Below, one piece after another: positions 37,577 through 50,970 of a stretch of 64,000 bases of DNA (the first letter of the stretch is position 1; every line of letters starts with the position of its first letter). This DNA comes from Serinibacter salmoneus. GTDB taxonomy: Bacteria > Actinomycetota > Actinomycetes > Actinomycetales > Beutenbergiaceae. The notes below the pieces were generated by a model. That model had not been told where the DNA came from and searched no databases. It saw only the letters and a program-made list of their open reading frames with translations. Made by a program: the position numbers and the translations under genes. The stretch lies in assembly GCF_002563925.1 (NCBI RefSeq), contig NZ_PDJD01000001.1, positions 310,001 to 374,000 on the forward strand, written 5' to 3'.

Positions 37577-38191
37577 GTGATCCGTGCCGGGGAGACCGTG
37601 GTCGACGGCGTCCACCTTGCCTGGGCGCCCCTCGCCGCGGTGGACGGGGTGCGTGCCAGCGCCGTGGCCGACCTGGGCGCGGAGGAGCGGGAGCGCCTGG
37701 AGGAACTGAACGATGCGCGCGCCGACCGCCTGCTGCTCGGCCGGCACCTGGTGCGCACGCTCGCACGTCGGGTGGGCGCACTAGCCCCCGATGCACCCGT
37801 GCGCATCGACGCCGGCTGCCCCCGGTGCGGCCGCGAGCACGGGCGCCCGACCTTCCCCGATCTCCCGCTGGTCGCCGGCCTCAGCCACCTCGGCCCGGTG
37901 ACGATCGCCGCGGTGGCACCCCTCGCCGTCGTGTGCCGCCTGGGCGTGGACGGCGAGTTCCCGCCCGGTCCGGACGGCGCGGACCTGGTGGCGTGGACGA
38001 AGGCCGAGGCGATCGCGAAGGCGACCGGCGATGGCGTCGCCCACCTCGCCGGTCCGGGCGAGGCCGCCGCGATGGTCGCCCGAGCCGAGGCCGAGGGGTG
38101 GCGACTGGTGCGCGTTCCGGTGCCGGGCGCCGTCGTCCACCTCGCCCTGCCGCCCGCACCCGGGGCGCAGGCTCCTGCGCCTGGGGCATAG
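37577..38191 (+). CDS. 4'-phosphopantetheinyl transferase
   Basis: 204-residue Sfp-type transferase that installs the phosphopantetheine arm on carrier domains using CoA. Motifs: LGRHLVRTLARRVG, VAGLSHLG (the SH of the first CoA-contacting motif), CRLGVDGEF (magnesium-binding V/G-x-D core) and the late WTKAEAIAKATG (the W-x-K-E-A-x-x-K signature). A CPRCGREHG segment precedes the second motif, as in actinobacterial relatives. It is the likely activator of the NRPS carrier domain at 45635, 7.4 kb away. Start is GTG 37577, 6 nt after a TACCCT -10 box, hence probably leaderless. Confidence 0.85.
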   Translation: MIRAGETVVDGVHLAWAPLAAVDGVRASAVADLGAEERERLEELNDARADRLLLGRHLVRTLARRVGALAPDAPVRIDAGCPRCGREHGRPTFPDLPLVAGLSHLGPVTIAAVAPLAVVCRLGVDGEFPPGPDGADLVAWTKAEAIAKATGDGVAHLAGPGEAAAMVARAEAEGWRLVRVPVPGAVVHLALPPAPGAQAPAPGA

Positions 38192-45477: not shown

Positions 45478-45634
45478 GCCTCGAGATTACGCCCGGGAGC
45501 GGCGTCCACGCGCCCCCGGGCAACCCGGTGGTCGCCTCCCGTTCACCTGGCTCGGGCACAATGCCGGGGGCGCCCCCGCGCCGCCGGGCCCGCGCGGCGG
45601 CCCCGTGTCCCACCGCCGATCCCAGGAGATGCCC

Positions 45635-48600
45635 GTGCCGGGTTCGACCCCGATGGACAGCACCCCGGTGCCCAGCGACCCGATGGACCGCCTCGCCGAC
45701 GCCCCGCCGCCGCGCACCCTGGTGGACGTGCTGCGCGAGAGCGCACGCCGCCACCCCGACGCCCCCGCGATCGAGGACGAGGACGGCTTCATCAGCTACG
45801 CCGAGCTCCTGGCGCAGTTGCGGATCCGCGCCGACCTGCTGGCCCGTGACGGCGTGCGCCGCGGGGACCGGGTCGGCATCCAGATCGCCTCCGGTGGCCG
45901 TGAGCTCTACCTCTCCATCCTGGCCGTGATCGCGGCGGGCGCCGCCTACGTTCCGGTGGACGCCGACGACCCGCCCGAGCGGGCACGCCTGGTCTTCTCC
46001 GAGGCCGGGGTGCGCACCGTGCTGCGCGGCGAGGGCAGCCTCGTGGATTCCGCCGAGGCCCTGGTGGCCGCGCGCGAGGACGAGGACCCCGACGAGGACC
46101 TCGCCGGCCTCGGGGCGCCCTTCCCGCAGGAGCCCACACCGCAGGAGGACGCCTGGATCATCTTCACCTCCGGCTCCACGGGGGTTCCCAAGGGCGTGGC
46201 CGTCACGCACCGCAACGCCGCCGCGTTCGTGGATGCGGAGGCGGGCCTGTTCCTGGAGGACGCCCCGCTCGGCCCGGGCGACCGGGTGCTCGCCGGTCTC
46301 TCGGTCGCCTTCGACGCGAGCTGTGAGGAGATGTGGCTCGCCTGGCGCCACGGCGCCTGCCTGGTCCCTGCCCCGCGCGCCCTGGTGCGCAGCGGTGAGG
46401 ACCTCGGGCCGTGGCTGCAGCGTCGCGCCATCACCGTCGTCTCCACCGTCCCGACCCTGGCCGCGCTGTGGCCGGCGGAGTCGGTGGAGAATGTGCGGCT
46501 GCTGATCTTCGGCGGCGAGGCGTGCCCGCCCGAGCTCGGCGCCCGGCTGGCCTCACCCACCCGGGAGGTGTGGAACACCTACGGCCCCACCGAGGCCACG
46601 GTGGTGGCCTGCGCCGCCCCGCTGGACGGCTCCACCCCCGTACGCATCGGGTTGCCGCTGGCCGGCTGGTCGCTCGCGGTGGTGGACGCCGAGGGTCACC
46701 GGGTGCCCGAGGGCGGCAGCGGTGAACTCGTCATCGGCGGCGTGGGCCTGGCCCGCTACCTCGACCCCGCCAAGGACGCCGAGAAGTACGCGCCGATGCC
46801 GACCCTGGGGTGGGAGCGGGCCTACCGGTCCGGGGACCTGGTGCGCAACGAGGCCGAGGGCCTGGTGTTCCTGGGCCGGGCCGATGACCAGGTCAAGGTC
46901 GGCGGACGGCGCATCGAACTCGGTGAGGTGGAGGCCGCCCTGCAGAACCTCCCCGGGGTCTCCGGCGCCGCCGCCGCAGTGCGCCGCAGCGCCGCCGGCA
47001 CGCCCGTGCTGGTCGGCTACCTCACCGTGAACCAGGACTTCCAGCGCCAGGCCGCCCGGGCGATCCTCGCCGAGGAGCTGCCCGCCGCGCTGGTGCCGCT
47101 GCTCGCCGTCGTGCCCGATCTACCCACCCGCACCAGCGGCAAGGTCGACAAGGACGCCCTGCCCTGGCCCCTGCCGGGGGCGCAGGAGGATGCGCCGTCG
47201 AACCTCCCGCCCGAACACGCCTGGCTCGCCCAGCAGTGGCAGGACGTGCTCGGCATGCCGGTCACCGACCTGGACGCCGATTTCTTCGACCTCGGTGGCG
47301 GCTCGCTGACGGCCGCCCAGCTCGTCTCCCGGATCCGCACCCGCCTGCCCGAGGCGAAGGTGGGGGACATCTACGACCGGCCGCGGTTCTCCGCGATGGC
47401 CGCCATGATCGCCGAGAAGGGCTCCGCTCCCGACGGCGAGGCCTCCTTCTCCCGGCCCGTCCCCACCCCCCGGCTCACCCAGGTGGGACAGACGCTCGCC
47501 TCCGTGCCGCTGCTGGCCCTGTCCGGGGTGCGCTGGCTGCTGTGGGTGCTGCTCGCGAGCGCGATCCTGCGCGCGGTGGCCCCGGAGTCGTTCACCTTCC
47601 TGCCCGCCCTTCCCTGGCCCACGCTGCTGATCGGCACCCTGGTGCTGGCCACCCCGTGGGGGCGCATGGCGATCGCGGTCATCGCCGCGCGGGTGCTGCT
47701 CGCGGGCCTGCAACCGGGGGACTACCGGCGCGGCGGCAGCGTGCACATGCGGCTGTGGATCGCGCAACAGGTCGCCGAGCAGGTCGACGCCGTGGGCCTC
47801 GCCGGGGCGCCCTGGGTGGTGCCCTACGCCCGGGCGCTGGGTGCCACGATCGGCAAGGACGTGGTGCTGCACTCCCTGCCCCCGGTCACCGGGATGCTGC
47901 GGATCGACGACGGCGCGTCCATCGAACCCGAGGTGGACCTCGCCGGGTACTGGATCGACGGGGACACGCTACGAGTCGGCGGGATCCGGATCGGTGCCAA
48001 CGCCAGCATCGGGGCGCGCAGCACCCTCGCGCCGGGCGCGCGGATCGGCAAGGGCGTCACCCTCGCCCCCGCCTCCGCGGTGTTCGGCAAGGTGCCGGCG
48101 CAGGAGACCTGGGGCGGTTCGCCCGCGGTGCGCATCGGTGCCGGGAAGGACGACTGGCCCCGCAGCCAGCCGCCGCGGCACCGGGGCTGGTGGGCCGCCT
48201 ACGCCGCCGCCAGCGTCGGCATCGCGCTGCTGCCGATCCTCGCCTTCGCCGTCGGCGCCCTGATCCTCCTGGCCCCGGCGGCCGGCGCCGCCACCTACGG
48301 CGAGGCGATCGGCGCGATGGCGCCGTGGCTGATCCCGGCGACCCTCGCCGTCGGGCTCACCTTCGGGGGCCTCGTGCTCGTGCTGGTGCGCCTGCTGGCG
48401 CTGGGCCTGGCGGAGGGGGACCACCCCGTGCACTCCCGCATCGCCTGGCAGGCGTGGTCCACCGAGCGGCTGCTGGACTCCGCCCGCACGATCCTGTTCC
48501 CGATCTACTCCAGCCTGTTCACCCCGGTGTGGCTGCGCATGCTCGGCGCGAGGGTGGGGCGCGACGTGGAGGCCTCCACCGTGCTGCTGCTGCCCTCCAT

Positions 48601-49594
48601 GAGCCGGATCGCCGACGGCGCCTTCCTCGCCGACGACACGATGGTCGCCTCCTACGAGCTGCGCCGCGGCTGGATGCGGATCGCGCGCGCCCGGGTGGGC
48701 AAGCGGGCCTTCCTCGGCAACTCCGGGATGGCGGCCGCCGGCCACAAGGTGCCCAAGGACGGGCTGGTGGCGGTGCTGTCCGTCACCCCCTCCAAGGCCA
48801 AGGCCGGCTCCTCCTGGCTCGGCTCCCCGCCGGTGCGGCTGCGCCGCGTGCCCACCCAGGGCGACGAGCGGCTGACCTACCGGCCCGACGGGCGGCTGCG
48901 GGTGCTGCGCGCCGCGTGGGAGGTGCTGCGGATCATCCCGGTGATCCTCACCTGCGCCCTCGGGGTGGCCGTGCTGCTGCTACTCGCGTGGCTGACCCAG
49001 CACATCGGGCTGGGGTGGACGGTGCTGCTCTCCGGCCTGGTCGCGGCGCTGGCCGGGGCCGTGGCCGCCGGTGTCGCCACGGCCGCGAAGTGGGCGATCG
49101 TGGGTCCGATCCGCCCCGGGGAGCATCCGCTGTGGTCGTCCTTCGTGTGGCGCACCGAGGTCTCCGACACCTTCGTGGAGATGCTCGCCGCCCCGTGGTT
49201 CGCCCGGGCCGCCGCCGGCACCCCCGCGCTCGCGGTGTGGCTGCGCAGCCTCGGGGCCAGCATCGGGCGCGGTGCCTGGTGCGACTCCTACTGGCTGCCG
49301 GAGCCGGATGCCGTCACGCTCGGCGACGGCGCCACCGTGAACCGTGGCTGTGTGGTGCAGACCCACCTGTTCCACGACCGGGTGATGAGCGTGGACACGG
49401 TGGTGCTCGGCGAGGGCGCGACCCTCGGACCGCACTCGGTGATCCTCCCGGCGGCTAGCATCGGAGCACACGCCACCGTCGGTCCGGCCTCCCTCGTGAT
49501 GCGCGGGGAGGACGTGCCGATCGGGAGCCGGTGGAGTGGGAACCCGATCGGGCCCTGGCAGGCGGTGCGGGTGCGCACCTACCAGCGCGCCTGA
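45635..49594 (+). CDS. Pls/PosA-type membrane non-ribosomal peptide synthetase
   Basis: 1319-residue enzyme from GTG 45635 (AGGAG 6 nt upstream; ATG 45629 is an alternative). An adenylation domain (about 25-505) has IIFTSGSTGVPKGVAVTH near 176, FDASCEEMW (Asp235-equivalent for the alpha-amino group, Glu at the 239-equivalent) and RTSGKVDK with the catalytic Lys. A carrier domain follows with DADFFDLGGGSLTAAQL (Ser about 557). After that there are three soluble left-handed beta-helix (hexapeptide) modules (about 738-815, 967-1052 and 1202-1300), each set off by pairs of membrane helices. This is the A-T-(TM-C)x3 plan of the Pls family, whose founder makes epsilon-poly-L-lysine by joining identical residues without templating. 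The product is unknown, but the family predicts an amino-acid homopolymer exported at the membrane. Confidence 0.88.
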   Translation: MPGSTPMDSTPVPSDPMDRLADAPPPRTLVDVLRESARRHPDAPAIEDEDGFISYAELLAQLRIRADLLARDGVRRGDRVGIQIASGGRELYLSILAVIAAGAAYVPVDADDPPERARLVFSEAGVRTVLRGEGSLVDSAEALVAAREDEDPDEDLAGLGAPFPQEPTPQEDAWIIFTSGSTGVPKGVAVTHRNAAAFVDAEAGLFLEDAPLGPGDRVLAGLSVAFDASCEEMWLAWRHGACLVPAPRALVRSGEDLGPWLQRRAITVVSTVPTLAALWPAESVENVRLLIFGGEACPPELGARLASPTREVWNTYGPTEATVVACAAPLDGSTPVRIGLPLAGWSLAVVDAEGHRVPEGGSGELVIGGVGLARYLDPAKDAEKYAPMPTLGWERAYRSGDLVRNEAEGLVFLGRADDQVKVGGRRIELGEVEAALQNLPGVSGAAAAVRRSAAGTPVLVGYLTVNQDFQRQAARAILAEELPAALVPLLAVVPDLPTRTSGKVDKDALPWPLPGAQEDAPSNLPPEHAWLAQQWQDVLGMPVTDLDADFFDLGGGSLTAAQLVSRIRTRLPEAKVGDIYDRPRFSAMAAMIAEKGSAPDGEASFSRPVPTPRLTQVGQTLASVPLLALSGVRWLLWVLLASAILRAVAPESFTFLPALPWPTLLIGTLVLATPWGRMAIAVIAARVLLAGLQPGDYRRGGSVHMRLWIAQQVAEQVDAVGLAGAPWVVPYARALGATIGKDVVLHSLPPVTGMLRIDDGASIEPEVDLAGYWIDGDTLRVGGIRIGANASIGARSTLAPGARIGKGVTLAPASAVFGKVPAQETWGGSPAVRIGAGKDDWPRSQPPRHRGWWAAYAAASVGIALLPILAFAVGALILLAPAAGAATYGEAIGAMAPWLIPATLAVGLTFGGLVLVLVRLLALGLAEGDHPVHSRIAWQAWSTERLLDSARTILFPIYSSLFTPVWLRMLGARVGRDVEASTVLLLPSMSRIADGAFLADDTMVASYELRRGWMRIARARVGKRAFLGNSGMAAAGHKVPKDGLVAVLSVTPSKAKAGSSWLGSPPVRLRRVPTQGDERLTYRPDGRLRVLRAAWEVLRIIPVILTCALGVAVLLLLAWLTQHIGLGWTVLLSGLVAALAGAVAAGVATAAKWAIVGPIRPGEHPLWSSFVWRTEVSDTFVEMLAAPWFARAAAGTPALAVWLRSLGASIGRGAWCDSYWLPEPDAVTLGDGATVNRGCVVQTHLFHDRVMSVDTVVLGEGATLGPHSVILPAASIGAHATVGPASLVMRGEDVPIGSRWSGNPIGPWQAVRVRTYQRA

Positions 49595-49665
49595 TCGCCG
49601 CCCGGCCGATCGCCCGCAGAACCGCACGAGCACGATCCACGACACCGAAAGAAGCACCCCGACGC

Positions 49666-50970
49666 ATGGCCAAGTCCCACGGCAACGGTGACCCCTACAC
49701 CCCCGACGCGGGAAGCGACGTGTTCGAGGTCGAGATGTACGACCTCACGCTGGACTACAAGGTGGCGACCAACCGGCTCGCCGGTGAGGCGATGCTCGCG
49801 ATCATCATGCTGCGCGAGGAGAGCCACATCGAGCTCGACCTCGCGGGCCTGGCGGTCAGCGCCGTCCGGGTGAACGGGCACAAGGCGTCCTACAGCCACA
49901 AGCACGCCCGGCTGCGGGTGAAGCTCGCCCGGGCCATGGTGGCGGGCACGCACCTGGTGGTCGAGGTGGACTACGCCGGCAAGCCCGCGCCGCGCAAGAG
50001 CCGCTGGGGTCGGATCGGGTTCGAGGAGCTCACCGACGGCGCGCTCGTGGCCTCCCAGCCCACCGGCGCCCCCACCTGGTTCCCCTGCAACGACCACCCG
50101 GCGCGCAAGTCCCGCTACCGGATGGCCATCACCACCGAGAAGGCCTACCACGTCGTGGCCAACGGGATCCCGGCCGGGCACACCGACCACGGCGGCCGCC
50201 GCACCTGGCGCTTCTACCAGGACATCCCGGCGGCGACCTACCTCGCCACGGTGCAGATCGGGCGCTACCGGGAGGAGCAGGTGGACCTGGGCGGGATCCC
50301 GGGCGCGCTGATCTACCCGCCGCACCTGCGCCGTCGGGTCAAGCACGACTTCGGCCGGCTCGGGGAGATGATGGCGCTGTTCGAGGATGCCTTCGGGCCC
50401 TACCCGCTGGCGAAGTACGTGGCGGTCATCACCGACGACGACCTCGAGATCCCGATCGAGGCGCAGGGCATGGCCACGTTCGGCGCCAACCACGCCGACG
50501 GGCACCACGGCTCGGACCGGCTGATCGCGCACGAACTGGCGCACCAGTGGTTCGGCAACTCCGTCACGCCCAAGCAGTGGCGGCACATCTGGCTGAACGA
50601 GGGATTCGCCTGCTACTCGGAGTGGATGTGGTCGCAGGCGAGCGGCGCGGAGAGCACCGACGCGCTCGCGGAGCATTATCACAAGCGTCTCGCCGGACTG
50701 CCGCAGGACATCCTCGTGGGCGACCCGGGCGCGGTGGACATGTTCGACGACCGGATCTACAAGCGCGGCGCCCTGACCGTGCACGCGCTGCGCCGCACCG
50801 TGGGGGAGAAGACCTTCCGCGCGCTGGTGCGCAGCTGGACGCACGAGATGCGCCACGGGGTGGCGGACACCGAGGAGTTCATCGCGCACGCCGAGCGGAT
50901 CGCGGGGCGGTCGCTGCGGCCGCTGTTCCAGGCGTGGCTGTTCCAGACGCGTCTGCCCGCGTTGCCGTAG
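49666..50970 (+). CDS. M1-family zinc aminopeptidase
   Basis: 434-residue metallopeptidase. The zinc motif HELAHQW has H289, E290 and H293, and the third ligand E312 (NEGFACYSEW) completes HExxH-18-E. The exopeptidase region is EAQGMATFGANH where most M1 enzymes have GAMEN, so substrate preference may be altered. Tyr of the catalytic pair is in YKRGALTVHALR. It begins 72 nt after the synthetase stop on the same strand, so it is probably co-transcribed. An M1-type aminopeptidase is known to degrade epsilon-poly-lysine in poly-lysine producers, which makes a trimming or self-protection role here likely. No signal peptide is seen. Confidence 0.88.
   Translation: MAKSHGNGDPYTPDAGSDVFEVEMYDLTLDYKVATNRLAGEAMLAIIMLREESHIELDLAGLAVSAVRVNGHKASYSHKHARLRVKLARAMVAGTHLVVEVDYAGKPAPRKSRWGRIGFEELTDGALVASQPTGAPTWFPCNDHPARKSRYRMAITTEKAYHVVANGIPAGHTDHGGRRTWRFYQDIPAATYLATVQIGRYREEQVDLGGIPGALIYPPHLRRRVKHDFGRLGEMMALFEDAFGPYPLAKYVAVITDDDLEIPIEAQGMATFGANHADGHHGSDRLIAHELAHQWFGNSVTPKQWRHIWLNEGFACYSEWMWSQASGAESTDALAEHYHKRLAGLPQDILVGDPGAVDMFDDRIYKRGALTVHALRRTVGEKTFRALVRSWTHEMRHGVADTEEFIAHAERIAGRSLRPLFQAWLFQTRLPALP

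Follow-up and report, generated by a model that had tools for sequence, protein, structure and literature searches.

A predicted epsilon-poly-L-lysine operon in Serinibacter salmoneus: a Pls-family synthetase and its co-inherited PldII-like M1 peptidase

The window considered here is a stretch of 64,000 nucleotides from Serinibacter salmoneus (positions 310,001 to 374,000 of contig NZ_PDJD01000001.1, assembly GCF_002563925.1), in which a gene for a large Pls-family synthetase, pls, is followed on the same strand by a gene for an M1 zinc peptidase. The question raised by this locus is what the two genes make together, since an earlier note had proposed a cationic homopolymer that is made and trimmed by the pair, or a new relative of such a polymer. 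By sequence the first proposal is supported and the second is not, the substrate pocket being that of the lysine enzyme, and we consider that the locus is very probably an epsilon-poly-L-lysine operon consisting of the synthetase and a counterpart of the peptidase PldII. The basis is the domain plan, the lysine-type pocket, the gene order, the intact zinc site and the co-inheritance of the two genes, from which we infer the product, its export, the timing of expression and a role in self-protection. This type of two-gene operon is already described in related bacteria and the window is another actinobacterial member; the novelty of the locus was overrated in the earlier note, since this operon had already been published (PMC8117764), and what the present analysis adds is a count of the co-inheritance of synthetase and peptidase. 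The two genes are:

45635..49594, forward strand: pls, predicted epsilon-poly-L-lysine synthetase, 1319 amino acids, GTG start, adenylation and thiolation domains (A-T) plus three transmembrane/beta-helix modules
49666..50970, forward strand: PldII-like two-domain M1 zinc peptidase, 434 amino acids, IPIEAQ replacing GAMEN, HELAH-X18-E

The pls frame runs from the GTG at 45635 to the stop at 49592-49594, with an AGGAG at 45624-45628, 6 nt ahead of the GTG, and an alternative ATG start at 45629. The M1 gene, from the ATG at 49666 to the stop at 50968-50970, lies directly downstream on the same strand, and the gap from stop to ATG, given before as 72 nt, is 71 nt on recounting. Both frames are intact, as are the motifs inspected.

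The full Pls plan that had been seen in the 1319-residue protein was borne out by profile searches and structure modelling. The NCBIfam profile TIGR02353 ("Pls/PosA family non-ribosomal peptide synthetase") matched residues 619-1305 over positions 3-695 of its 695, scoring 702 bits where the cut-off is 423, and this is the sole match over the cut-off in the 3.27-Mb genome. Pfam placed AMP-binding at residues 33-374, PP-binding at 530-592 and two Hexapep stretches; it matched these three families only, and found no condensation or thioesterase domain in the synthetase. The protein thus has the adenylation and carrier domains of the family, followed by three soluble modules between membrane helices, as judged from the hydrophobic stretches and the model:

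45731..47161, forward strand: adenylation domain, about residues 33-509
47222..47410, forward strand: thiolation (carrier) domain, residues 530-592, containing DFFDLGGGSL
47489..49549, forward strand: NRPS_term_dom (TIGR02353), the polymerising membrane region, residues 619-1305
47840..48139, forward strand: beta-helix module C1, about residues 736-835, bounds taken from the model
48536..48844, forward strand: beta-helix module C2, about residues 968-1070, bounds taken from the model
49250..49543, forward strand: beta-helix module C3, about residues 1206-1303 (model), containing H1244

For the C-terminal region, five models had a mean predicted local distance difference test score (pLDDT) from 68 to 85, the best having 85. 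Long helices were modelled in pairs (613-648 with 674-688, 851-882 with 888-922 and 1100-1124 with 1126-1156), coinciding roughly with the hydrophobic stretches of the synthetase, and many short strands after each pair build three strand-rich modules, in agreement with the architecture modelled in PMC10522769. Among the 50 of 539 Foldseek matches listed, hexapeptide acetyltransferases and GlmU enzymes predominate, with a few designed proteins, and the template modelling (TM) score among these is low, 0.16 by query length at best; by sequence, this region matched five solved structures, all weakly. When we scanned its conservation for a polymerising active site, a single histidine passed the filter, H1244 of module C3 (codon 49364-49366), which is kept in 28/28 divergent rows and in all 136 close rows (a rounded figure). 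H1244 is therefore a candidate residue for bond formation and is offered as a lead. By eye, modules C1 and C2 have a tyrosine where C3 has H1244.

The monomer was predicted from the adenylation domain, the best solved match of which is PDB 7WEW ("Epsilon-poly-L-lysine synthase"), at 629 bits and aligned along the whole domain; we take 7WEW to be the Streptomyces albulus protein. Ten pocket positions, as defined by the GrsA numbering, were read from the core motifs; in the synthetase they are D227, A228, E231, S270, I291, G293, T315, V323, V324 and K503. The earlier note, in which the full code could not be assigned by eye, had proposed an alignment of this pocket to Pls, and the code obtained, DAESIGTVVK, equals that of 7WEW at 10/10 positions, including Asp, Ala and Glu at positions 1-3; the Glu that the note had placed at position 239-equivalent is indeed present, as residue 231 of the synthetase. 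Lysine is therefore clearly the predicted monomer, and a new monomer was rejected because of this match with the solved lysine enzyme. According to PMC10522769, members that activate lysine carry Ala at the second pocket position, where the delta-poly-L-ornithine synthetase PosA of Acinetobacter baumannii has Met218 and a diaminopropionate synthetase has Phe, and the conserved Glu at position 3 binds the side-chain amine. PosA belongs to the same superfamily and shares the polymerising region of the window Pls but, unlike it, is encoded in a single-gene operon and has the ornithine pocket DMEHNGTVSK (PMC10522769). The S. albulus Pls has the same described domain plan, the same lysine pocket and a peptidase gene directly downstream; it comes from another organism and the window sequence has clearly diverged from it, although the adenylation domain can be aligned whole, and the product is here a predicted one.

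The 434-residue downstream protein contains both M1 domains by Pfam and an intact HEXXH-X18-E zinc site, in which H289, E290, H293 and E312 are invariant in 38/38 aligned pls-linked members, as are E265, the motif Glu, and Tyr365; HEXXH occurs in 102/102 rows (window counted twice). The altered GAMEN-like motif that had been noticed in this protein reads IPIEAQ, beside the zinc motif HELAH...E and the conserved Tyr, and its Glu aligns with the GAMEN Glu of the two other, long M1 aminopeptidases of the genome, both of which have a normal GAMEN. Of the GAMEN exopeptidase motif, the window M1 retains the Glu (E265), the remainder departing from GAMEN. Its model (pLDDT 94) gave M1dr of Deinococcus radiodurans as best Foldseek match, over about the full length, with a TM-score of about 0.90 and 28-29% identity. 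Both are two-domain M1s lacking the C-terminal helical domain. Structures of M1dr have been determined in complex with ordinary amino acids and with a tripeptide (PDB 6A8Z, 6KOZ). On the side of gene context, the M1 of the window stands beside a polymer synthetase; we know of no link of M1dr to one.

In S. albulus, the neighbour of pls is PldII, an epsilon-poly-lysine-degrading enzyme described as translationally coupled to pls, located outside the membrane and endo-type (PMC9223678), and an endo-type activity on the cell surface is also reported in PMC9205021. The likeness to the window is that of an aminopeptidase-type gene after pls, which suggests the same function. The published accounts of the mode of PldII differ, as PMC9223678 also has hydrolysis starting from the N-terminus; moreover, the homology model given there has two zincs, at D44/T45 and D173/K174, sites which do not fit the HEXXH-X18-E of the pls-linked M1s, PldII being compared here by its description. 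In epsilon-poly-lysine each residue beside a scissile bond carries a free alpha-amine, so that internal bonds resemble an N-terminus; since this holds for the residue of every scissile carbonyl, an M1 site could take any residue within the chain for an N-terminus, and a two-domain M1 with a remodelled GAMEN segment and no capping domain could cut anywhere in the chain, given an open-ended side-chain pocket. We therefore put forward, tentatively and as somewhat less than an even chance, that the pls-linked M1s are a dedicated, co-inherited isopeptidase subfamily in which an aminopeptidase site works as an endo-enzyme. We have not met this argument in the literature consulted, our searches having not been aimed at it, and do not assert that it is unpublished.

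The association of the two genes was examined in several sets of relatives. Among 80 named loci, which are the best of 567 relatives and hence biased to the window type, 80/80 have an M1 gene downstream of pls on its strand, and the code DAESIGTVVK is found in 80/80. When the loci are extended to 104, the window's own included, 101 have the downstream M1, and the code is kept in 103/105 rows (window counted twice), the other two having no adenylation domain in frame. In the genome set, 120 Pls-family rows correspond to 119 places after two pieces of one gene were joined; 60 places were examined, namely 59 of these rows and one place in the genome with our handle G335. They comprise most of those that were short or scored low (genome G708 being among those left out) and a sample of the rest. 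The lysine code was read at 36 of the 60, with an M1 nearby in 31; a non-lysine, DFE-type code was read at eight; and the remaining 16 had no adenylation domain in the same frame and no adjacent M1 (0/16), with one partial match at 3.6 kb.

Using a profile built from 38 pls-linked M1s, 394 Actinomycetes genomes were then searched for the peptidase as well as for the Pls family. In each genome the best two (Pls) and four (M1) candidates of a first look were scored, and absence of a gene therefore rests on this first look, and the counts ignore the kinship of the genomes. Pls-family genes over the cut-off were found in 105/394 genomes. The M1 scores split into 92 genomes with at least 486 bits (90 of these with at least 580) and a next score of 425, the threshold being set after this gap was seen. 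All 92 genomes with the PldII-like M1 have a Pls-family gene (92/92), and in 90 of them the M1 follows the synthetase gene on its strand at a distance of no more than 3 kb, being elsewhere in G298 and G734; among the 289 genomes without a Pls-family gene, the profile search found the PldII-like M1 in none. It was not found either in 13 of the 105 Pls-family genomes, the synthetases of which are DFE-type in six (G409, G468, G507, G522, G599, G721) and without an adenylation domain in frame in four (G369, G439, G466, G524), the other three having the lysine code.

Several of these results, together with published ones, weigh against the reading as an epsilon-poly-L-lysine operon. The three lysine-code genomes without a detected PldII-like M1 (G592, G414 and G739) are exceptions to the pairing, two of them (G414 and G739) being drafts of 92-93% completeness. 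By eye, no signal peptide is evident in the window M1, whereas PldII, compared by description, is reported on the cell surface. At four of the eight DFE-type loci an M1 is likewise present, some 960 nt downstream, so that an M1 neighbour alone is no proof of lysine and was ruled out as such. In Corynebacterium variabile, for which Jiang et al. 2021 described an operon of pls and a peptidase gene, the pls homologue yields epsilon-poly-lysine in S. coelicolor M145 when driven by the S. albulus pls promoter, but no detectable polymer was reported from C. variabile itself or from C. glutamicum with its gene (PMC8117764). The likeness of that operon to the window is the pls-peptidase pair, in a different species; here the M1 was analysed and the co-inheritance counted.

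Because of these last results the locus could be silent. An unexpressed or seldom expressed pair, yielding hardly any polymer or none in nature, would be compatible with the predicted chemistry, and C. variabile with its operon gave neither polymer nor detectable Pls protein in the tested culture (PMC8117764); we regard this as unlikely, as both frames and the inspected motifs are intact and the finding of the peptidase only together with the synthetase, in 92/92 genomes, argues for selection. It is very unlikely that the pair makes and trims a different cationic homopolymer, of ornithine, diaminobutyrate, diaminopropionate or beta-lysine: other pocket codes do occur in the Pls family, with an M1 at half of the DFE-type loci, but the window pocket is that of the lysine enzyme at every position, the ornithine, beta-lysine (DGESISVVNK) and diaminopropionate codes in PMC10522769 differ from it, and the M1s of those four loci belong to another variant, with 37-38% identity to the window M1, ALETQG instead of IPIEAQ and an extra frame between the two genes. 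Very unlikely too is a general aminopeptidase that happens to be placed beside pls, for although the protein is an M1 family member and M1dr, the closest solved of the two-domain M1s, binds ordinary amino acids and a tripeptide, the high-scoring subfamily was found in 0/289 genomes without a Pls-family gene and the genome has its two long M1s with normal GAMEN.

In the epsilon-poly-L-lysine reading, the membrane-bound synthetase would activate L-lysine as an adenylate and load it onto its own carrier domain, the beta-helix and membrane region would join the loaded lysine to the epsilon-amino group of a free lysine or of the chain being extended, and the M1 peptidase would hydrolyse the polymer, an antimicrobial, so as to limit chain length and protect the producer. 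As a food preservative, epsilon-poly-lysine is approved for use, and pls homologues have been reported in eight coryneform genera (PMC8117764). About a quarter of the sampled Actinomycetes have a Pls-family synthetase (105/394), 92 of them with the PldII-like peptidase; if most make the polymer, it would be widespread as a product of actinobacteria and not peculiar to Streptomyces, and the strict co-inheritance of the peptidase offers a direct test of chain-length limitation and self-protection in such cells.

Concerning its origin, the window Pls has up to 71% identity to Microbacterium against 58% to the only relative sampled from its family (L159), and in a quick tree it stands on a long branch within a 16-row clade of Microbacterium, other Microbacteriaceae and one Propionibacteriaceae metagenome-assembled genome. 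This closeness to Microbacterium and the tree placement hint at a horizontal transfer of pls. Composition gave no clear G+C anomaly (pls 0.749 and M1 0.704, against 0.723 for the window), and a foreign origin was not retained on that ground. The named Pls relatives also include Nocardia, Mycolicibacterium and Tsukamurella.

The other window neighbours examined showed little association with pls, beginning with a gene that the earlier note had mentioned with the locus as a phosphopantetheinyl transferase:

37577..38191, forward strand: weakly supported candidate for an Sfp-like phosphopantetheinyl transferase, located 7.4 kb upstream of pls, linkage not conserved

Sfp-like motifs are visible in it by eye and it shares 37% identity with a similar protein close to pls in one Microbacterium, but its matches are weak (ACPS E=0.18, below cut-off; Sfp E=2.3) and homologues were found in only 2/80 related pls loci, with flanks up to 8 kb, so that its identity is weakly supported and its place in the cluster is not supported. 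As to an enzyme for loading the carrier domain, the genome has one ACPS-family match, which lies outside the window, at genome position 599074-599340. No ThrE-like, alpha/beta hydrolase, ligase-like or permease neighbours were found beside pls in the 80 loci, some of which have short flanks; NAD-synthase-like and GFO-type neighbours were found in 3/80 and 2/80.

Variants of the locus were also observed among the relatives. Four loci (L141, L142, L144, L146) carry a synthetase with the code DFEY[IL]GTVTK, then an amidotransferase-like frame with GFCLGGYLAG (by eye), then a two-domain M1 with ALETQG, and are possibly a parallel operon for a polymer of a shorter diamino acid. In L145 and L148 the lysine code goes together with a polymerising region that has diverged (34% and 26% identity), and a PldII-like M1 was not found for either; they may have a different product, or no trimming. 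At L122-L132 and L134, homologues of 816-1106 amino acids correspond to the polymerising region only, with an adenylation-domain-like frame (30-33% identity) nearby on the same strand, and are apparently split synthetases. The spacing between pls and M1 reaches 0.6-2.2 kb in Tsukamurella (L041, L042, L045), in Williamsia (L065, L082) and at L172, with extra frames between the two genes in L042 and L172. Finally, the industrial lysine producer Corynebacterium glutamicum, taken as a control, scored over the TIGR02353 cut-off and carries a Pls-family gene.
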